From Thermoflexus sp. (GTDB lineage Bacteria; Chloroflexota; Anaerolineae; Aggregatilineales; Aggregatilineaceae), in assembly GCA_020724465.1 (NCBI GenBank), contig DYGX01000009.1, forward strand, positions 124,001 through 188,000: DNA of 64,000 nt. The letters run 5' to 3'. Below the pieces are notes generated by a model that saw nothing but the letters and a program-made list of their open reading frames with translations, was not told the origin of the DNA and ran no database searches. Position 1 is the first letter of the stretch. The number at the start of each line of letters is the position of its first letter. A program made the translations under genes and the position numbers. Positions 9,887 through 64,000 of this stretch are shown in pieces.

Positions 9887-12097
9887 CTAGCGAGCGCCGC
9901 GCAGCTTCGACAGTTTACGCTGCAGGCGGCGGCGCCCCGTGCGATTTCCAGGCTGCAACAGGGCGAGCGCCCGCTCGAATGCCTGGCGGGCGTCGGCGGG
10001 CCGGCTGATCTGCTCGCAGATATCGCCCAAACGCTCAAAGAGAGCGCTGGCACGCCGCGCGCCGCGCGACGCATCCGGCAGAGATACCGCCAGCGCACAC
10101 GCTCGATCGAGCAGCGCCGCCGCCTCCCCCGGCATGCCCGTCGCTTGGGCGTCGCCGGCGGCTTCGCAGTAAAAGCGCACGGCCAGGTCGGCACAGCCCG
10201 CCCCCTCGTAGTGTGCGGCGATCTGCCCGCTGACCGGGCCAGGCGCACCCGCGTGCAGCGCCCGGAGCGCCAGCGCCATCCGCCGGTGCAGCGCCGCACG
10301 CCGTACCGGCGGTATGTCGTCGTACAGCGCGTCGCGAACTATCCGGTGACTGAAGTGCGCGCGCGTGGATCCTTCTTCGCGGACTACCCGCTTGCGCTGC
10401 AGCTCGTCCAGGGCGCCCATAAACGCAGCTTCCGCCAGACCGCTTGCCTGCTGCACCACCGCGATTTCAAAGCGCTGCCCGGCGGTGGCCGCCAGGTCCG
10501 CCAGGTCGCGAGCCGCCGGAGACAGCGCCGCCAGCCGCGCCTCGATCGCCTGACGCAGGCGGGCCGGCAGCGGCAGTTCGCCTGCGACGCTGCGCCCGGC
10601 AACAGCCCGCGCCAGCTCCACGACGAACAGCGGATTACCCGCGCTCTCCTGACACACGCCGTCGCACACTGCCGGATCAAGCGCTGTGCCTGCCGTATGA
10701 CGGGCAAGCGCCAGCGTGTCGTCCCGGTCGAGCGGGGGCAGCACCAGATCGGCGATCTGATCGCGCCGGCGCAGTTCCGCGCACAGCGACCGCAGCGGCG
10801 GATTGTCGTCGAAATCCTCGCTGCGCGCCGCCGCCAGGATCAGATACGGCGCGCCCGGCCTGGCCCGCAGCAGGTAGGACAGCCAGTTGGCCGTGGCGAG
10901 ATCGCACCACTGCGCGTCGTCAACCACCAGCAGCAGCGGCGAGCTATCGTCGGGCAGCAGCGCGTGGACCAGCGCGTCGTAGAGGTGATGGCGCTGCCAG
11001 TCTTCGACCAGCGGGCGCGGGGGAGATAGCTCCGGGTCCTCGGCCAGCAATTCCGGCAGCAGGCGCGCGATCTCGCCACGCCAGACGCGCTCCAGAGGCG
11101 GCAACGGTCGCGCGCGCAGCCACCCCGCAACCGGCGCATAGGGCAGAGCGCCCTCGGCAGGGAAGCAGCGCGCCGCCAGCACCGGCACTCCCTGCCCCTG
11201 CACGTGCGCGGCGAACGCCTGGCAGAGCGCGGTTTTGCCCATGCCGGTTTCGCCCAGGATCAGCGCCAGATGCGGCCAGTGGTCCAGGGATGCCTGCCAG
11301 GCTCGCTCCAGGAATGCCCAGGCCTCAGCCCGACCGACCAGATGGGGCGCAGCGGGGCGGTTCGCCCCGGCTTCATGCGGCGCGGCCAGCAGTTCGTGAT
11401 ACAGCGCCTGAGTGGCCGGGCCGGGATCGACGCCCAGCTCGGCCTGAAGCCGGCCGGCACACACGCGATAGACCTGCAACGCCGCGGCGCGATCCTGGTT
11501 GAGCATGTGCAGGCGCATCAAGACGCGGTGGAGTTCCTCGTGCAGCGGCTCAAGCTGCAGCAAGCGCTGGGCGCTGCCGATCGCCGCGCGATAGTCGCCC
11601 GCGCGCTCCTGCCGGGCAAGCTGCTCCCACAGCACATCGATGTACACCTGGCGCAGCCGCTCCCGCTCCGCGATCAGCCAGTCGTCATAGCAATCCGGCA
11701 GCAGATCGCCGTGATAGATCTCAACCGCTTCTTCCAGCGCCCCGGCGGCGACGGCGGCCTCGAATTGCGCGACATCAAGGGCCACGCGGTCATCGGTGTT
11801 CCACTGAATGTGCTGCGCATCGATGGACAACAGCCGGTCGGCATCGGGCAGGCACTGGCGCAGGGCATGTAGCAAATGGCGCAGGTTCGTGCGCGCCTGG
11901 CTTTCCGAGGAATCTGGCCAGAGCAGGAAGGCCACATAGCCGCGCGGCTGCGGCGTGTCGCGGTGCAGCAGCAGAAAAGCCAGCAGGGATTTCAGGCGAG
12001 CGGTCAACAGGGAGGTTGCCGGACTCGTGTTGTAGACGAGCTGAAAACCGCCCAAAAGCCGGATCTGAAGCGTCTGCCGTGCTGCGCGTCGATGCAT
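9887..12097 (-). CDS. BTAD-domain transcriptional regulator with AAA ATPase (SARP/LAL-like)
   Basis: A 736-residue regulator. Residues about 10-95 form an OmpR-like winged helix (IRLLGGFQLVYN, then LLAFLLLHRD), followed by a bacterial transcriptional activator (BTAD) TPR region to about 250. Next comes a STAND/AAA_16 ATPase with Walker A GETGMGKT near 280 and Walker B LLLVVDDAQW near 390, then a helical repeat tail. Proteins of this architecture bind DNA and switch conformation with nucleotide and ligand. The likely targets are neighbouring genes, so it may control the protease/DUF6603 operon just downstream on the same strand, which is inference. It starts at ATG 12097. The opening codons lie within one copy of a 10-bp repeat described under findings. 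Confidence 0.9.
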   Translation of the reverse strand: MHRRAARQTLQIRLLGGFQLVYNTSPATSLLTARLKSLLAFLLLHRDTPQPRGYVAFLLWPDSSESQARTNLRHLLHALRQCLPDADRLLSIDAQHIQWNTDDRVALDVAQFEAAVAAGALEEAVEIYHGDLLPDCYDDWLIAERERLRQVYIDVLWEQLARQERAGDYRAAIGSAQRLLQLEPLHEELHRVLMRLHMLNQDRAAALQVYRVCAGRLQAELGVDPGPATQALYHELLAAPHEAGANRPAAPHLVGRAEAWAFLERAWQASLDHWPHLALILGETGMGKTALCQAFAAHVQGQGVPVLAARCFPAEGALPYAPVAGWLRARPLPPLERVWRGEIARLLPELLAEDPELSPPRPLVEDWQRHHLYDALVHALLPDDSSPLLLVVDDAQWCDLATANWLSYLLRARPGAPYLILAAARSEDFDDNPPLRSLCAELRRRDQIADLVLPPLDRDDTLALARHTAGTALDPAVCDGVCQESAGNPLFVVELARAVAGRSVAGELPLPARLRQAIEARLAALSPAARDLADLAATAGQRFEIAVVQQASGLAEAAFMGALDELQRKRVVREEGSTRAHFSHRIVRDALYDDIPPVRRAALHRRMALALRALHAGAPGPVSGQIAAHYEGAGCADLAVRFYCEAAGDAQATGMPGEAAALLDRACALAVSLPDASRGARRASALFERLGDICEQISRPADARQAFERALALLQPGNRTGRRRLQRKLSKLRGAR

Positions 12098-54122: not shown

Positions 54123-55142
54123 ATGCAACAATTCACGCTGGTCAACGCCAACGGCATCGAGGTCACAATCACATCCTATGGGGGCGCGATCACCTCGCTG
54201 CGCGTGCCGGATCGTCACGGCACGCCGGCGAATGTCGTCTTGGGCTACGAGACGCTTGAGCAGTACGCGGCGAATCCGCTCTACTTTGGCTGCATCACGG
54301 GGCGCTGCGCCAACCGGATTGCCGGCGGCCGGTTCACGCTCGATGGGCGCGAGTACACCCTGCCGCTGAACGACGGGCCGAACTCATTGCATGGCGGCCA
54401 TGCCGGGTTCGATAAGCGCGTCTGGCGCGCCGGCGCGATCAACGGCCAGGGACGGAGCGGGGTGACGCTGTCGTACCTCAGCCCGGACGGCGAAGAAGGC
54501 TACCCCGGCAACCTGGACGTGACGGTTACCTACACGCTCACCGATGCCAACGAGATCCGCATCGACTACCGCGCTACGACCGATCAGCCGACCATCGTGA
54601 ACCTGACCAACCATTCATATTTCAATCTCGCCGGCGAGGGCAGCGGCCCGGTTTACGATCACATCCTGATGATCAATGCCGACCGTTATACGCCGGTCAA
54701 CGACAACCTGATTCCGACCGGCGAGCTGGCGCCGGTCAACGGCACGCCGTTCGACTTCCGTCTGCCGAAAGTGATCGGCGCGGGCGTGCGCGGGCCGCAC
54801 CCGCAGATCGCGCGCGGGCGCGGCTACGATCACAACTGGGTGCTCAACCGGCCCGCACCCGACGACAGCTCGCTGCTGCTGGCCGCCCGCCTGTACGAAC
54901 CCCGCTCGGGACGCCTGCTCGAAGTCTGGACCACCGAGCCGGGCATCCAGTTCTATTCCGGCAACTTCCTGGATGGCACGGTTTCCGGCCCCAGCGGGCG
55001 CGCCTATCGCCAGGGCGACGGGCTGGCGCTCGAGACCCAGCACTTCCCGGATGCGCCCAACCAGCCGCACTTCCCAAGCGTGGTCCTGCGGCCCGGCGAG
55101 ACATACCAGTCCACGACCGTCTACCGCTTCCTGACCGACTGA
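54123..55142 (+). CDS. galM: Aldose 1-epimerase (mutarotase)
   Basis: A 339-residue GalM-family enzyme that interconverts alpha and beta anomers of aldoses. Signature elements: GITGRCANRI-like FGCITGRCANRIAGGRF, NDGPNSLHGG (first catalytic His), NLTNHSYFNLAG (second His) and the glutamate-containing ALETQHFPDAPN near the end. No signal peptide. It lies alone between divergent and convergent neighbours, with GAGGGGGA just before the ATG. It would speed entry of sugars released by the window's glycosidases into kinase pathways. Confidence 0.94.
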   Translation: MQQFTLVNANGIEVTITSYGGAITSLRVPDRHGTPANVVLGYETLEQYAANPLYFGCITGRCANRIAGGRFTLDGREYTLPLNDGPNSLHGGHAGFDKRVWRAGAINGQGRSGVTLSYLSPDGEEGYPGNLDVTVTYTLTDANEIRIDYRATTDQPTIVNLTNHSYFNLAGEGSGPVYDHILMINADRYTPVNDNLIPTGELAPVNGTPFDFRLPKVIGAGVRGPHPQIARGRGYDHNWVLNRPAPDDSSLLLAARLYEPRSGRLLEVWTTEPGIQFYSGNFLDGTVSGPSGRAYRQGDGLALETQHFPDAPNQPHFPSVVLRPGETYQSTTVYRFLTD

Positions 55143-57613: not shown

Positions 57614-57728
57614 CGGGCCCTCCTGTTTCCGACATTAATTTCATAGTATTTTAATTTAACTTCCCCCTGCGACGAGATTTACTCATTGTTCTCTAATATC
57701 CGGTTTCAGGCGGCGTGCCCGACGCGAA

Positions 57729-57748
57729 AGCGGGCGTTTTCGCCCGCT
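57729..57748 (-). terminator. Tetraloop hairpin after the kinase gene
   Basis: On the minus strand AGCGGGCG-AAAA-CGCCCGCT forms an 8-bp stem with a 4-nt loop about 40 nt after the kinase stop. It is followed by only two T, so it is a weak terminator or a 3'-end stabiliser for the mannosidase-kinase operon. Confidence 0.6.
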
Positions 57749-57786
57749 CCGAGATGATGGCTCTGCCGGCGCAGTCGCCCGCAATG

Positions 57787-59082
57787 TCACTGCGCTTTGA
57801 GGTGCTCCAGCGCCAGCTCGAAGAACTCCGGACTGCCGAAGCTGCCGGATTTGAGCACGAGCAGCAGCGGTGGATCGGTCAGCGACAGGCAGGACGGCAG
57901 GCCCGGCTGGATCTCCTTCCAAATGCGCAGGCCGGAGATCCCCAGCCGCTGTGAGACGGCGTTCGAAGTTTCGCCCCCGGCGACCAGCAGACGGTTCAGC
58001 CCGGTCTGCGCGATCACCTGCGCCACGACTTCGGCCAGCGCAGCCGACACCCCGCGCGAGACATCCCTTGGCGACAGCCCGCGGCGCGCGCCCTCGGCCC
58101 GCACAGCGGCGACGCCCGCTTCTGAGTTCGACGTGTGCAGCAGCGCGTCTATGCCGGCGCGCAGCGTCCCCACCACGCGCTCGGTCAGCTCCGCCAGCGC
58201 CGGCGCGCGCCGGTCCGGGTCGAACAGCGCCAGCGGATCCAGCTCGAAAGCCGGAACGCCGCGCGCCTGCAGGTGCTCGATCTGGGCTGCCGTTTGCGGC
58301 ATCAGGCTGCCCGCTGCGCACAGCACGCCCAACCCCGCCACCGGCGGCGGCGCGCTGATCGCCTGCGGCGCCGGTCGCACACCCCAGGCCGCCGGAAGTT
58401 CCTCGGCGATCGCGGAGCTTCCGCACAGGACCGTGCAGTCGTGCGCGGCGCGGGCAATGATCGCCAGCGAATTCTGATCGACCACGTCGAGGATGACGTA
58501 ATTCCAGCGCGTGCGGGCTGCGTCGATGGCGGCGCGCAGCGCGTCCGGCCCCTGCTCGACGACGGTGTGATCGATCAGGCCAACCGAGCGCCGGGTCTGC
58601 GCCTGCAAGATCTCCACCAGGTTCGAGCGGCGCATGGGGTGAACCGGGTCGTTGCGAAACTCCGAGTCTTCCAGCTTCTTGCCGTGCACGTAATGAATAC
58701 CGTTGATTGTCTGCCGCCCGTTCTTGGGGAAGCCCAGCACCACCACCGCGAAGTCCTGCCCCAGCGCATCGAGCATGGCGTCGAACTCCGCGCCGATGTT
58801 GCCGCGAAAGACCGAGCAGGTCTTGTTGTGAAACTGCGTGCAGCCCGCCGCCTGCAGATCGCGTGTGGCGGCGAAAACCTTCTGGTAGGCGACATCGGGC
58901 GGGTCCAGGCGCGAATTCGTGTCCAGAATCGCGATATCCGGCGCGCCGGCGCCACCCAGGACGTGCGCCAGCGACCCTGGCCCGGCGTAGGCATAGACGT
59001 GCACCAGCAGGCCAGACTTGGCGAACATGATGCCGATGTCGTTCGCGCCGGTGATGTCGTCGGCCACCACGCCCATGATCAT
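57787..59082 (-). CDS. Four-carbon-acid-sugar kinase family protein (DUF1537/OtnK-like)
   Basis: A 431-residue kinase. The N-terminal substrate domain starts VVADDITGANDIGIMFAKSG, in which the DDxTGA motif is diagnostic. The C-terminal nucleotide-binding domain contains VAGGETSNAVSQRLGI and LVLKSGSFGSPEFF. The family phosphorylates C4 acid sugars such as 3-oxo-tetronate, and also 3-oxo-isoapionate in OiaK. I start at ATG 59082, which overlaps the aldolase stop as ATGA, not at the GTG 12 nt upstream. Pairing with a class II aldolase-type decarboxylase is the normal OtnK-OtnC arrangement. The dehydrogenase and isomerase partners are not seen here. Confidence 0.9.
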   Translation of the reverse strand: MIMGVVADDITGANDIGIMFAKSGLLVHVYAYAGPGSLAHVLGGAGAPDIAILDTNSRLDPPDVAYQKVFAATRDLQAAGCTQFHNKTCSVFRGNIGAEFDAMLDALGQDFAVVVLGFPKNGRQTINGIHYVHGKKLEDSEFRNDPVHPMRRSNLVEILQAQTRRSVGLIDHTVVEQGPDALRAAIDAARTRWNYVILDVVDQNSLAIIARAAHDCTVLCGSSAIAEELPAAWGVRPAPQAISAPPPVAGLGVLCAAGSLMPQTAAQIEHLQARGVPAFELDPLALFDPDRRAPALAELTERVVGTLRAGIDALLHTSNSEAGVAAVRAEGARRGLSPRDVSRGVSAALAEVVAQVIAQTGLNRLLVAGGETSNAVSQRLGISGLRIWKEIQPGLPSCLSLTDPPLLLVLKSGSFGSPEFFELALEHLKAQ

Positions 59083-59741
59083 GAGGACCGCCACCGCCTG
59101 CGCGGCTTGTAGCCCGCGTTCTCCAGAAAATCCGTCACCGTTTCCGGCGGCAGCCCGCGGACGCTCAGCCCGGCGCCCCGCGCCAGCAGCAGCATCCGGC
59201 AGGCGATCTCCAGCGTTTCCAGACCCATGAGCGCCTCGGACAGGCTGGTGTCGTAAACCAGCACACCGTGATTCTCAAGCAGCAGAACGTTGGCCTGGTC
59301 CGCCTGCTGGCGGACGGCTTCGCCCAGCGCCGGGCCGGGATGCCGGTAGGGCACGCGCGCCACGCGCTCCAGGTAGTACATCGCGGAGATGAACCAGTTG
59401 CCCGGCACGTCCAGGTCCGTGCAGGCGACCAGTGTGCTATGCAGCGGCTCTGCGTGCAGGATCACGTTGACGTCCGGACGCACCTGATACACGGCGCGGT
59501 GCATCGGGACTTCCTTCGACGGCTTGCGCCCCGCTTCCAGCGCGGCCCCTGTCTCCACCGAGCACAGCACCAGGTCGTCGGGCGCCAGCTCGCCCAGCCG
59601 CGATCCGCTGGCCGTGATCAGGAAGGTATCCGGCCCGGCGCGGGCGCTCAAGTTCCCGGCGTTGCCCCAGGTCAGGTCGCGCTCCAGCAGCAGGCGCCCG
59701 GCCCGCTGCAAATCGGCGCGCAGCGTGTCTAGATCGGTCAT
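59079..59741 (-). CDS. Class II aldolase/decarboxylase (OtnC-like)
   Basis: A 220-residue class II aldolase/adducin-fold protein. Conserved features are LTWGNAGNLSAR (phosphate/substrate loop), ITASGSRLGELAPDDLVL, Glu77 (KPSKEVPMH) and His158 (LLLENHGVLVY). The first metal histidine is His96 in VILHAEPLH. The second member of the usual HxH pair is replaced by Glu98, so metal binding may be altered but is not excluded. With the OtnK-like kinase it probably acts on a phosphorylated 3-oxo acid sugar, giving a triose phosphate and CO2. ATG 59741 has AGGGAG upstream, 14 nt after the GH2 stop. Confidence 0.88.
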   Translation of the reverse strand: MTDLDTLRADLQRAGRLLLERDLTWGNAGNLSARAGPDTFLITASGSRLGELAPDDLVLCSVETGAALEAGRKPSKEVPMHRAVYQVRPDVNVILHAEPLHSTLVACTDLDVPGNWFISAMYYLERVARVPYRHPGPALGEAVRQQADQANVLLLENHGVLVYDTSLSEALMGLETLEIACRMLLLARGAGLSVRGLPPETVTDFLENAGYKPRRRWRSS

Positions 59742-59755
59742 CGCACTCCCTCGCC

Positions 59756-62308
59756 TCACTCCGCTTCGATGATCTGCCTAGCGACGTTCCACCCGCTGAC
59801 CGCGATCCGGCGCTCGCCGGGTGGAGCGCCGCACCACATCACCGCAACGGCACGCGACTCGCCGGGCAGCAGGCAGAAGTAGTTGTCGTCAAACTGCGCG
59901 TAGCCGGGGGCGTCCGGCGGGCGCGCGTCTTCCAGCCACACAAACAGCGCCGCCACCGCGCCGGGATTCGACACGGCGATCCGCCACCCGTCCGCCGACC
60001 GCTCGACGCTAAGCGCCAGCACCGTCTGGGGCGCGTGCAGCGCGGGGGCCAGCGTCGTCTGGCGCGTGAACAGGTAGCGGCGCCGGACCCGTTCCGCGCC
60101 ATCGGGATCGTGCAGCGCGAGATCGAGCAAGAACACGTCATCGACCGCGTCCAGCGGGCAGCGCAGCGTGGGGCCGGGCGTGATCGCACCCGGCGCCAGC
60201 GTCAGAGGCTGCGCCAGCGCCGCGTAGACTGTCCCGCGCAGGTTCACCAGCCGGGCGTCCAGCGCGGTCTCGACGGCGCCAGGCGTCGAGTTGGCGCACC
60301 ACAGCTCCGCCTCGAACCCGGCGCGGCCCGCCCAGCTTTGCGTCTCAAAGCGCGCGGCGACCAGCAGCGGGGCATAGGCGCGCGCGACCGCGTAGTAGAG
60401 CGGCTTGGGGCGCCCGTAATAATCGACTGCCGAGGTGCAGGCCGCCATCGGGTACGGCTCGTTGAACTGCCAGGGCAGCGACCCGCTGTTTTGGAACTTG
60501 CGCCGCCGGTTGGCCTCGACCGCGTAGCGCACGCTTTCGGCCTGCAGGTACTGCGTCCCCTGGATCAGCCTGTCCAGCGTCTCGACCTCGCCCAACGACG
60601 CGCGCCACTGCGCCGCTTTGATCCACCACGCGCCGCGATGAAACCAGACCGGGTTGTCGAGCGTCACCGGCCAGCGATCGCCCGCCGGGACGGTGTGTTC
60701 CAGGGTGATGCGGTTGGCGAGGCCCTCGGCACCGAACTCGCTGTGCAGCAGCGACGTCGCCCGGTTGTAGAGCGTCTGCTGCGCGGTCAGACCCTGGTGT
60801 TCCCAGGGACCGTGCACATCGTGCTGCGCCAGCGGATCGCGCTCGATCTCGGCCAGGCTGTTGGAGAACGCGCGCCCGCTGGGCGAGGTCGGCAGCCACA
60901 TCCGCTCCGGATCAAGCTCCGCCACCACGTCGCGCAGCGCCGCCAGGACCGGGTGCCGCTCGTCGAGCGGGACGGAGCCGTCGGCCAGCTCGTTGCCGCC
61001 GCCCCAGATCGCCAGCGACGGATGATTGCGCTTGCGCGGCACGATCGCCCGTGCCTCGCGTGCCATCAGCGCCACGAACTCCGGATCATCGGCGGGGATG
61101 TTGTCCAGCCCGGAACTCGACTGGATGAACTCCTGCCAGACCAGAATCCCCAGCCGGTCACAGCGGTCATAAAACGCCTCTTTCTCGATCAGCCCGCCGC
61201 CCCACACGCGCAGCAGATTGACGTGCGCCCGCCGCGCCAGCCCCAGCAGGTGATCGAGCTTCTCCGTGCGCTCCACTCCGTAGAGCACATCAATCGGGAC
61301 CCAGTTCCAGCCCTTCAGGTAGATCGCCCGCCCGTTGGCCCGCAGCGTGTACGGTCTTGCAGTGCGGTCCGGTGTGTCGTTCGGCACGAACTCCAGCCGC
61401 CGGATGCCGAACGTCACCGCGCGCCCGTCCGATTCGGCGCCGCTGGCCGGATCGACGACCGCCACACGTGCCCGGTAAAGCGGCTGGCTGCCGTGCCCGT
61501 TGGGCCACCACAGCGCCGGATCCTGCAGCGAGAAATGCACGGTGGTGACCGGCTGCGCGGCGTGGAGCCGCTGCTCCGCCAGCACGCGCCCCTCATGCTC
61601 CAGCGCGACGGCGATCTCGGCGGGCAGCGCAGCGTCGAGCGTGACTTGCACCGCGACTTCGGCGCGGCGGAGCGCGTCGTCCGGCGCGGCGCGCACCCAC
61701 ACGTCCGCAATGCGCTGCGGCCCGGTGAAATCCAGATGCACGCCGTCCCAGATGCCGGCGTGCACCAGGCGCGGGCAGAAATCCCACCAGTAGGTCATGC
61801 GGCACTTGTGAGTGCGCACCCGGCTGGTCCGCCCGACCTGCGGCTGCTCGTCCGGCGGGGGGTCGAGCGCCACCGCGAGCAGATTGTCCTCGCCATAGCG
61901 CAGCCGCTCGCCGACCTCGAACCCGGCGGGGGTGAACATGCCCCGGTGCGCGCCGAGCGGCTCGCCGTTGAGGAAGACCTGCGCTTCGTAGTCGATGCCC
62001 TCGAAGCACAAAACGGCCCGTCGCCCGCGCAGCGCCTCGGGCACGCTGAACCACTTGCGGTAAACCCACGCACGCTGCGAGACCCACTCGCACGCCAGGC
62101 TGTTGCGCGCCACATACGGATCGGGCAGCTCGCCTGCCTGCCACGCGTCGTGCGCCACGCTGCCGGGGACCATCGCCGGAAGCCAGCCGTGCGTGTCGCG
62201 CGTGTCGGGCCGGTGCGACCCGCGCATCAGCCAGTCGAGGCCGTAGAACGGCTTGCAGAACCAGTCGTTTCCGTTCAGCCAGAGGCGGGTGTGCAAAGGT
62301 TCGGTCAT
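59756..62308 (-). CDS. GH2 beta-mannosidase-like glycoside hydrolase
   Basis: An 850-residue GH2 enzyme. The N-terminal sugar-binding domain has VPGSVAHDAWQAGELPDPYV and FEGIDYEAQVFLNGEPLGAH, typical of beta-mannosidases. The TIM barrel has LRVWGGGLIEKEAFYDRCDRL, the acid/base Glu in SLAIWGGGNELADG (about residue 441) and a nucleophile Glu in LLHSEFGAEG (about 524). No signal peptide. It probably cleaves beta-mannosides inside the cell. It overlaps the GH38 gene by 4 nt (ATGA), so alpha- and beta-mannosidase are made together. Confidence 0.9.
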   Translation of the reverse strand: MTEPLHTRLWLNGNDWFCKPFYGLDWLMRGSHRPDTRDTHGWLPAMVPGSVAHDAWQAGELPDPYVARNSLACEWVSQRAWVYRKWFSVPEALRGRRAVLCFEGIDYEAQVFLNGEPLGAHRGMFTPAGFEVGERLRYGEDNLLAVALDPPPDEQPQVGRTSRVRTHKCRMTYWWDFCPRLVHAGIWDGVHLDFTGPQRIADVWVRAAPDDALRRAEVAVQVTLDAALPAEIAVALEHEGRVLAEQRLHAAQPVTTVHFSLQDPALWWPNGHGSQPLYRARVAVVDPASGAESDGRAVTFGIRRLEFVPNDTPDRTARPYTLRANGRAIYLKGWNWVPIDVLYGVERTEKLDHLLGLARRAHVNLLRVWGGGLIEKEAFYDRCDRLGILVWQEFIQSSSGLDNIPADDPEFVALMAREARAIVPRKRNHPSLAIWGGGNELADGSVPLDERHPVLAALRDVVAELDPERMWLPTSPSGRAFSNSLAEIERDPLAQHDVHGPWEHQGLTAQQTLYNRATSLLHSEFGAEGLANRITLEHTVPAGDRWPVTLDNPVWFHRGAWWIKAAQWRASLGEVETLDRLIQGTQYLQAESVRYAVEANRRRKFQNSGSLPWQFNEPYPMAACTSAVDYYGRPKPLYYAVARAYAPLLVAARFETQSWAGRAGFEAELWCANSTPGAVETALDARLVNLRGTVYAALAQPLTLAPGAITPGPTLRCPLDAVDDVFLLDLALHDPDGAERVRRRYLFTRQTTLAPALHAPQTVLALSVERSADGWRIAVSNPGAVAALFVWLEDARPPDAPGYAQFDDNYFCLLPGESRAVAVMWCGAPPGERRIAVSGWNVARQIIEAE

Positions 62309-64000
62309 GCCAGGGGTCGATCTTCCAGCTCAAGCAGATCGGTCTCGGTCACAGGCTGCGCGTCGTCGAACGGCACGCGGAACGTCTTGATCTCGCACGG
62401 GCCGAAGGGCGCGGTAATCGTGCGGTTCCACGCCGGCAGCCGGATCGTGGCGTCTGCCGCCGCGCCGGTGGTCTCGTAGGCGCGGACGATCAGCGCGCCG
62501 CCGTCTTCGGCCTGCTTGACCACGCTCACCAGCACGCTTTCCGGCTCGCACATCACGTACCCGGCGCTGGGCGGCAGCGGCCCGTCGTGGAAGGTCGCCA
62601 GCAGCGCAAACGGGCGCTGGTTCAGCTCGGCGGCGCGGCACACCGTGCCCGCCGTCTCCCACCGGCCCGCGTGTGGCAGCAGGGCGTAGGTGAAACGCTG
62701 CTCGCCCTGGTCAATGTAGCGATAGTCGCGGCCCGGCTCCGGCTGGGCGGGGATGTGATGCGCGTAGATCGGGCTGCGCAGCACCGTCAGGCCGATGTCG
62801 CGCACGTTCACGTCGAAGCTGTACTTCCCGTCGTTGAGCAGGCTCAGGCCATAGGTTTTTCCGGTCGCCTGCACCGAGCCGGAGAGGTCCAGCCAGCTCT
62901 GGCCCGGCTCCTCGTCGCCGGTGTTCTCGCGCTCGATGTGCCCGTAGGGGATCTCGTAGACGGCGCGCATGAAGATCTGGTTGACGGCAAAGCGCAGCTT
63001 GAGCAGCTTGTGCTGCTCGCGCCAGTCCACCGTGACGCGCACCTCGACCGGGTCTAGATCGCGGTAGAGCATGAAGTCCTGCGTCAGCGTCGATCGCTCG
63101 TACGTGCTGACGACGCGCAGCACCGCCCGGACCGGCCCGCTCTCCACCAGGCGCACGCTCTGCGGCACGAACTGCCCGACCACGTCCTGGAAGCGAAAGA
63201 CGTTGTGCGACCAAGTGTCGCTCGGGTCGTCGATAACCACCGGGCGCGCGGCCTGCCTCTGGAAGACCTCGACACCCGCTTCCTTATCGTACAGGCTGGC
63301 GATGCAGCCGGTCTCCGGATCGATGATCAGGCGCAGGCGGCGGTTTTCCAGGGTGGTGCTGCTGGCGAGCAGATCGGCGCCGGGGTTGGGTGTCGCGGTC
63401 CCCGGCTGCGACGGCACAATGCGATATGTCCGGTAGCCAAGCGGCGGCAGGTCCGCCACGAAGCACAGGCGCGTCTGCCCGCGCGCCGTCGCCCACGACT
63501 GGATTTCCTGCACCGCGACACGACGCCCCGCGTCGTCCAGCAGCGCGTAATGCTCCGGCAGGCCGCGCGCCTGCACCTCGACCGCGACACGGCTTGCCCA
63601 GGCGTGCGGGTTGAAGACGACCAGCGGCTTCGCCCCGTCTTCCGGGGGGATATGGATGGCCCAGGCCAGCGATTGCACGGCGTCGTTGTGTGCCCGGTCC
63701 GCGATGGCGAGCGCCTCGCCGTACAGCGCGCGGGCGTCGTCATAGGCGTTCTCCAGGCTGGTGCCGGCCAGGATGTCGTGAAACTGATTGAACAGCACGC
63801 TCTTCCAGGCGCGGGCCAGCGCCTCGCCCGGATACGGCAACCCGGTCACGCGCGCCGCGATGGCCGCGAACTTCTCGGCGGCGATCAGACGGTTCTCCGC
63901 CTCGCGGTTCCAGCGTTTGATGCCCGAATGGGCCGCGTAGCACCCGCTGGCGTGATGCTGAAGCTCGTCACGCACCACCGGGATCGGCAGGTCGCGCGTC
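62305..64000 (-). CDS. GH38 alpha-mannosidase (5' end beyond window)
   Basis: The frame is open to the window edge, so the N-terminal catalytic barrel is missing and 564 residues are visible. They begin inside the family's RDELQHHASGCYAAHSG region. FNQFHDILAGTSLENAYDDA is the helical-domain hallmark of GH38. The C-terminal beta-domains contain RRLRLIIDPETGCIASLYDKEAG and the DLDPVEVRVTVDWREQHKLL motif. The enzyme should release alpha-linked mannose from imported oligosaccharides. It is upstream of the GH2 gene with a 4-nt overlap and leads, within the window, the mannosidase-aldolase-kinase operon. Confidence 0.92.
   Translation of the reverse strand, partial: TRDLPIPVVRDELQHHASGCYAAHSGIKRWNREAENRLIAAEKFAAIAARVTGLPYPGEALARAWKSVLFNQFHDILAGTSLENAYDDARALYGEALAIADRAHNDAVQSLAWAIHIPPEDGAKPLVVFNPHAWASRVAVEVQARGLPEHYALLDDAGRRVAVQEIQSWATARGQTRLCFVADLPPLGYRTYRIVPSQPGTATPNPGADLLASSTTLENRRLRLIIDPETGCIASLYDKEAGVEVFQRQAARPVVIDDPSDTWSHNVFRFQDVVGQFVPQSVRLVESGPVRAVLRVVSTYERSTLTQDFMLYRDLDPVEVRVTVDWREQHKLLKLRFAVNQIFMRAVYEIPYGHIERENTGDEEPGQSWLDLSGSVQATGKTYGLSLLNDGKYSFDVNVRDIGLTVLRSPIYAHHIPAQPEPGRDYRYIDQGEQRFTYALLPHAGRWETAGTVCRAAELNQRPFALLATFHDGPLPPSAGYVMCEPESVLVSVVKQAEDGGALIVRAYETTGAAADATIRLPAWNRTITAPFGPCEIKTFRVPFDDAQPVTETDLLELEDRPLA

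Follow-up and report, generated by a model that had tools for sequence, protein, structure and literature searches.

The window considered here, a stretch of 64,000 nucleotides from the 4.4-Mb genome of Thermoflexus sp. (contig DYGX01000009.1; G000:C25:124001-188000), closes with four minus-strand genes encoding an alpha-mannosidase-like protein of glycoside hydrolase family 38 (GH38), a beta-mannosidase-like protein of family 2 (GH2), a member of the class II aldolase/decarboxylase family (ALD) and a DUF1537 kinase (KIN), which are the last four genes of a 16-gene run. We give even chances to the reading that this run is an operon for the use of a mannose-containing glycan or glycoside, in which a racemase-fold protein (RAC, PF01177), KIN and ALD would break down an oxo acid sugar, yielding CO2 and a triose or ketose phosphate. 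The observations that underlie this reading are the order and families of the genes, their conservation in two phyla, the absence from the loci of LtnD and OtnI, two enzymes of the L-threonate/D-erythronate pathway, and the divergence of KIN and ALD from OtnK and OtnC of that pathway. DUF1537 kinases are markers of acid-sugar pathways, and their substrates have been traced through genome neighbourhoods; the tie between the KIN clade and an alpha-mannosidase in two phyla suggests a sugar that is released from, or eaten with, mannose. The orphan substrate is directly testable in culturable Paenibacillus, and the locus also points to a role for the RAC family, members of which lie beside some other acid-sugar-type kinases.

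The four genes were recognized from their open reading frames and Pfam domains, combined with scores on curated models for KIN (435 aa, 57787-59094, minus strand), the nearest curated model (OtnC) and an H-A-E metal motif for ALD (226 aa, 59079-59759, minus strand), and solved relatives and motifs for GH2 (850 aa, 59756-62308, minus strand) and GH38 (62305-64000, minus strand). The latter is open at the window edge and runs on for about 755 nt, to C25:188755. GH38 and GH2 overlap by 4 nt, as do ALD and KIN when counted from the ATG, and GH2 is separated from ALD by 14 nt if the ATG of ALD is used, or overlaps it by 4 nt if translation starts at a GTG. The reading frames, families and spacing thus confirm the arrangement of 4-nt overlaps and a 14-nt gap described in an earlier reading of the same DNA (hereafter the sequence-only reading). 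The left border that it drew, at 57729, falls inside a terminator-like hairpin (57726-57751, minus strand; folding of 57722-57762), and needs a small correction where KIN is concerned, the reading frame of which ends at 57787. About 36 nt separate the hairpin from the stop codon of KIN; it lies in a 41-nt stretch that folds at -17.9 kcal/mol (z -2.55), 3 of 200 shuffles folding as well.

In order to follow the operon upstream, 39 kb across the window edge were fetched and their genes typed. In the direction of transcription, the run begins with a ROK regulator, a solute-binding protein, two permeases, a GH31-like protein (a weak Pfam match, 20.7 bits against a cut-off of 23.5), RAC, an FGGY kinase and a PF01116 aldolase (FBA), and continues with a GH63/GH100-like protein, a URO-D-like protein, a twin metallo-beta-lactamase (MBL), GH43, GH38, GH2, ALD and KIN. 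The largest gaps flank the solute-binding protein (127 nt from ROK and 112 nt to the first permease); with the start codons chosen by us, no other gap exceeds 21 nt. ROK is preceded by a -35/-10 pair that agrees at 11 of 12 positions, one such site being present against 0.6 in shuffles, which is weak when taken alone. The small gaps, the promoter-like site before ROK and the hairpin after KIN together make a single transcription unit plausible. Beyond ROK lies a divergent pair formed by a URO-D-like gene and a second GH38.

The association of kinase and mannosidase recurs well outside this genome. A contig scan with KIN identified 17 loci, belonging to Chloroflexota metagenome-assembled genomes (MAGs), many Paenibacillus and one Thalassobacillus; the scan employed peptides from one query, and these loci are therefore close relatives only and no census. 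The nearest named record, a sister MAG designated "Anaerolinea sp.", has the same genes and a kinase that is 92% identical, and outside the sister genome kinase identity amounts to 50-63% across two phyla. GH38 is present in 15 of the 17 loci, being absent from L045, with L052 starting inside KIN; ALD is likewise present in 15, being absent from L046, with L052 cut. RAC is found in 11, and four of the remaining six (L041, L042, L046 and L052) are short contigs. RAC proteins at 58-62% identity exist elsewhere in the genomes of L043 (same contig, 14 kb upstream of KIN), L045 (in a second locus) and L046 (on a contig ending inside GH38), and the order RAC-FBA-GH38-ALD-KIN recurs in Paenibacillus. 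Over 19 records (the window's genome, G056, L042-L057 and L106), with matches covering more than 75% of the query, KIN and ALD were each counted 17 times, GH38 16, RAC and a SIS protein 14 each, FBA and a ROK kinase 13 each, FGGY 12, MBL 6 and GH2 4, the lower counts including truncated contigs and split alignments. One of the 13 FBA proteins, in L044, is just 36% alike. The linked SIS protein is GmhA-like (132.8 bits, below a cut-off of 209), for which reason heptose was considered as a possible substrate, and no match to it was found in the window's own genome at E 1e-10.

In the 298 genomes of the class, PF07005 is present in 68 and GH38N in 171, and among the matches listed, inspected by eye and extending for GH38 down to about E 1e-60, only the window's genome has the two on the same contig; in this search, the GH38 of the operon reaches 1.9e-67. 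The other DUF1537 kinases of the class have no GH38 link among the matches listed. This contrast, together with the presence of GH38 and of ALD in 15 of the 17 KIN loci each, argues that the coupling is not accidental; the functional coupling claimed by the sequence-only reading, which a lack of co-occurrence in other genomes would have spoken against, is thus upheld in two phyla. Evolutionary distances among KIN, ALD, GH38 and RAC also correlate (r 0.62-0.86; for no pair did any of 1000 permutations reach so high a value), in a comparison that is confounded by linkage and species descent, both of which also raise r.

KIN carries the two Pfam domains SBD_N (207.1 bits) and NBD_C (130.2 bits), and its best curated model is that of the 3-oxo-tetronate kinase OtnK (NF043035), on which it scores 281.3 bits, below the equivalog cut-off of 350; its relatives in L047 (285) and L044 (261.9) also stay below this value. 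Identity to E. coli YgbK is 32%. In the rows shown, KIN and its relatives have a loop of the type CSVFRGN(I/V)G, where E. coli YgbK, 5dmh, 1yzy and 3dqq have CSTFDST-GNIG, and alignment to OtnK-type chains leaves a 4-residue gap, such that KIN does not possess the OtnK loop; the latter may be function-defining. In a tree, 19 rows of the KIN clade (L045 and L052 included) are separated from 12 further DUF1537 kinases, one of which is E. coli OtnK, by a branch with moderate support (83/96; one change in 84% of bootstrap trees), the outgroup branches being long and the position of E. coli OtnK unsure. In the Paenibacillus loci L054 and L055 (KIN at 10001-11482), an interruption of about 250 to 265 nt divides the match to the kinase.

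ALD displays a comparable distance from its named relatives. It matches Pfam Aldolase_II with 145 bits, is 31% identical to E. coli YgbL, and reaches 124.8 bits on its best curated model, OtnC (126.8 for L047), for which the cut-off is 250. The second histidine of HxH, which we take to be the metal motif of the family, is missing in 17 of 17 ALD rows (HAE, HAS, HSS or HGS, where E. coli YgbL has HLH). A structural model of ALD ties fuculose-phosphate aldolase with YgbL/OtnC (Z 27.2 and 26.6), and because of this tie the fold cannot tell a decarboxylase from an aldolase. A relative of ALD at 29-38% identity is present elsewhere in both G020 and G130. The label "OtnK-OtnC-type" given by the sequence-only reading to the pair is thus right in naming the nearest kin and wrong as a statement of membership, in view of the scores under the cut-offs and the altered motifs.

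RAC adopts an Asp/Glu racemase fold (the model of the L051 protein has a pLDDT of 93.8 and matches 5ell_A with E 1.3e-8 and probability 1.00). All 10 rows contain one invariant cysteine (C78) and an AQASM motif; the pair of catalytic cysteines presumably needed by a two-base Asp/Glu racemase is not present, where the place of the second site in RAC is our assumption. Apart from the window's genome, 21 genomes of the class contain both a RAC relative and a DUF1537 kinase; as judged by eye from the rows listed, the two lie no more than 5 kb apart in five of them (G341, G158, G124, G065 and G270), and the partners were typed in four of these (G341, G158, G124 and G270). In G341 (L087), the RAC relative immediately adjoins genes that resemble OiaX (524.7 bits) and OiaK (459 bits), each under its cut-off of 700; in G158 and G124 (L089 and L090), a tartronate-semialdehyde reductase lies beside it (362.4 and 362.5 bits, above the cut-off of 340.75); and in G270 (L088), lactate-racemase-like, transketolase N-terminal and xylose-isomerase-like TIM-barrel genes are the partners. 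The racemase fold and the DUF1537-kinase neighbours in five class genomes suggest that RAC probably isomerizes or epimerizes an oxo acid. Strict co-inheritance of RAC and KIN was also considered, and failed on G230.

Both mannosidase names hold at the level of sequence. The part of GH38 within the window covers the middle and C-terminal domains, and the full protein adds the N-terminal domain beyond the edge (225 bits); the solved structures closest to it are those of Ams1-type and other alpha-mannosidases, and the active-site motifs expected of an alpha-mannosidase are in place. GH2 has domains of the GH2/beta-mannosidase type, with the beta-mannosidase 5n6u as its nearest solved relative (E 5.7e-80) and the acid and nucleophile motifs WGGGNE and SEFG. 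The significance of these GH38 and GH2 motifs is taken here as presumed.

If these assignments are combined, the genes would constitute the 3' end of one glycan-utilization operon, the ABC importer of which may take up a mannose-containing oligosaccharide or glycoside that GH38, GH2 and partner glycosidases would then dismantle. The freed mannose would enter glycolysis, in most relatives probably through the linked ROK kinase and SIS isomerase, which would fit the conversion of mannose to mannose-6-phosphate and then fructose-6-phosphate. RAC is predicted to isomerize or epimerize the oxo acid sugar, KIN to phosphorylate its terminal hydroxyl, and ALD to decarboxylate the product of KIN, with release of CO2 and formation of dihydroxyacetone phosphate or another, related ketose phosphate. 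We infer each of these substrates and reaction steps, the role of RAC and co-transcription from the gene set itself.

Comparison with described systems places the locus between several of them. The L-threonate/D-erythronate pathway LtnD-OtnK-OtnC-OtnI (E. coli ygbJKLM) has in common with it a DUF1537 kinase adjoining an Aldolase_II-family protein. The window locus, however, is without LtnD and OtnI, carries RAC and glycosidases in their place, and does not qualify as such a cluster, KIN and ALD scoring below the curated cut-offs, ALD lacking HxH and the KIN loop being shorter. The dehydrogenase and isomerase that the sequence-only reading had supposed to lie upstream are both missing from the upstream DNA: E. 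coli LtnD and OtnI gave no match at E 1e-3 in 22 records (the locus, its relatives and neighbouring contigs), and OtnI none at E 1e-5 anywhere in the window's genome, in which three generic relatives of the LtnD family (30-32%) are present elsewhere. RAC may take over the job of the isomerase. The D-apionate enzymes OiaK and OiaX offer a second parallel through the RAC relative of L087 that adjoins OiaX-like and OiaK-like genes; KIN, however, scores 124 bits on the OiaK model (cut-off 700), and no RuBisCO-like protein is present among the typed operon genes. A three-step L-threonate route is described in PMC12540250 with the DUF1537 kinase 2-OtnK and a 2-OtnC that has an F_bP_aldolase domain, and with no OtnI. 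Both that route and the window locus hold a DUF1537 kinase and a PF01116 protein in the absence of OtnI, whereas the window locus adds an Aldolase_II protein and lacks LtnD, and FBA does not occur in every locus.

GH38, ROK and an ABC importer are common to the window operon and to known alpha-mannosidase loci such as those for the utilization of N-glycans or xanthan. Since GH38 is known from xanthan loci, xanthan or glucuronomannan was considered as a possible substrate. Among such alpha-mannosidase loci, we know of none that pairs a DUF1537 kinase with a class II aldolase, and no GH88 and no polysaccharide lyase are found among the proteins typed. No description of a locus such as this one was found in the literature among the matches listed. 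We tentatively propose, with less than even confidence, a previously undescribed catabolic pathway for a natural mannose-acid-sugar conjugate, shared by Chloroflexota and Paenibacillus, in which a single-cysteine RAC would replace OtnI and a new kinase/aldolase subfamily pair with a metal site other than HxH would form a phosphorylated triose or ketose from a new oxo acid sugar.

A number of observations weigh against the acid-sugar operon. No oxo-acid-forming dehydrogenase is present among its typed genes, the searches for LtnD and OtnI in the 22 records were empty, and decarboxylation by ALD is not supported by structure, given the missing second histidine and the tied folds. The comparison of GH38 within the class was made by eye among the matches listed, and the KIN clade is rare: 3 of 101 relatives are strong matches (the window's included), the next best being at 3e-30, and of 350 genomes sampled from the phylum, the window's own is the only one with a KIN match at 1e-70. 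L045 has KIN and ALD without a nearby GH38, although L106 of the same genome holds both, and L046 has KIN and GH38 without ALD, of which its genome has only a 35% relative. G230 possesses RAC, GH31, GH63, GH38 and MBL along with two PF07005 stretches that give no KIN match at E 1e-8; G020 carries a GH38-GH2-MBL-URO-D-GH63 block in a genome without PF07005; and of the 21 other class genomes having both RAC and PF07005, 16 do not have them close together. The coupling of mannosidases to an acid-sugar-type kinase and aldolase, as proposed by the sequence-only reading, thus stands as a conserved link, the upstream enzymes it called for are absent, and the acid sugar itself is plausible rather than proven.

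Among the alternatives, the one with the most weight, though still rather unlikely, is that KIN phosphorylates a neutral ketose or aldose of the same glycan and that ALD is a true class II aldolase, in parallel to FGGY and FBA. The structural tie of ALD between fuculose-1-phosphate aldolases and YgbL, its altered metal motif, the KIN loop CSVFRGNIG in place of CSTFDST-GNIG, the scores of both proteins under the OtnK and OtnC cut-offs and the lack of an LtnD-like dehydrogenase in the loci would all agree with such a role, whereas the RAC relatives that accompany other acid-sugar-type kinases in five genomes speak against it. KIN could also partner FBA, ALD acting elsewhere, since the published threonate route (PMC12540250) pairs an FBA-type protein (2-OtnC with its F_bP_aldolase domain) with a DUF1537 kinase (2-OtnK) and has no OtnI; the operon has its PF01116 gene next to FGGY, and FBA is present in 13 of the 19 records. 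This arrangement is nevertheless improbable: the model closest to KIN is that of 3-oxo-tetronate kinase, KIN occurs without FBA in L056 (21 kb covered), FBA and FGGY occur together in G130, which is not among the PF07005 genomes, and FBA exceeds the cut-off of the ketose-bisphosphate aldolase subfamily (246.5 against 215.6). FGGY and FBA are probably a second, separable branch, because G130 carries both without a RAC match, and because L056 has KIN, ALD and RAC without them.

The idea that the operon scavenges compatible solutes similar to mannosylglycerate or glucosylglycerate, with KIN as a glycerate-type kinase, would draw on the matches of GH38 to the mannosylglycerate hydrolase model (41.5 bits) and of the GH63/GH100-like protein to the glucosylglycerate hydrolase model (22 bits), as well as on an MGH1-like Pfam domain above its cut-off (45.1 against 27). 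Both matches are weak and far from the curated cut-offs (1138 and 550 bits), neither protein belonging to these families; glycerate would require no decarboxylase, and the GH2, GH31-like and GH43 partners would indicate a larger glycan, which makes this explanation highly improbable. We consider it slightly less probable still that KIN and ALD hitchhike in the locus and have no substrate in common: the glycosidase blocks of G020 and G130 are free of KIN, and the ALD relative elsewhere in both genomes could be cited in its favour, yet the same neighbours recur in two phyla at 50-65% kinase identity, and the distances of KIN, ALD, GH38 and RAC correlate. The least probable proposal, a suggestion of the sequence-only reading that is now disfavoured, is that mannose itself passes through an oxidized C4 intermediate. 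The tight gene order is the sole point for it, while no LtnD-like dehydrogenase is found in the 22 records and no dehydrogenase of any kind among the typed operon genes, and the linked ROK kinase (13 of 19) and SIS protein (14 of 19) could provide an ordinary route, though the window's genome gave no match to that SIS at E 1e-10. In relatives, an oxidation step is possible: a GFO/IDH/MocA-like gene is present in L051, and an FAD oxidoreductase in several Paenibacillus loci.

Other genes of the operon and its surroundings deserve mention. The URO-D-like protein of the operon (L002:15658-16803, minus strand) has MtaA/CmuA as its nearest NCBIfam model (71.7 of 235.4 bits) and keeps the HSCG and GDQCG motifs, while the second, divergent one (L003:7770-8783, plus strand) adjoins the second GH38 and has a relative (78%) that follows KIN in L044. 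MBL (L002:13836-15647, minus strand) is 603 aa long with metal-binding-type motifs in both halves; it has no close solved relative (best E 7.5e-8), and matches at E 1e-20 exist in 15 of the 298 class genomes, some of them next to GH38 or GH2. Just past the divergent GH38 lies a multihaem cytochrome-like gene (L003:11459-13600, minus strand), and a GH20 gene is present at L003:15740-17566 (minus strand), GH20C being linked too in L047, L048, L051 and L052. A 679-aa protein in L047 (2711-4750), with no Pfam match, clusters with members from 8 Paenibacillus/Thalassobacillus loci. By eye, a GH130-like mannoside phosphorylase is found near the KIN-free glycosidase block of G020 (L058, 2191-3240, plus strand), and an aldose 1-epimerase (mutarotase)-like gene lies near the end of the operon, at 54123-55142 of the window (plus strand).
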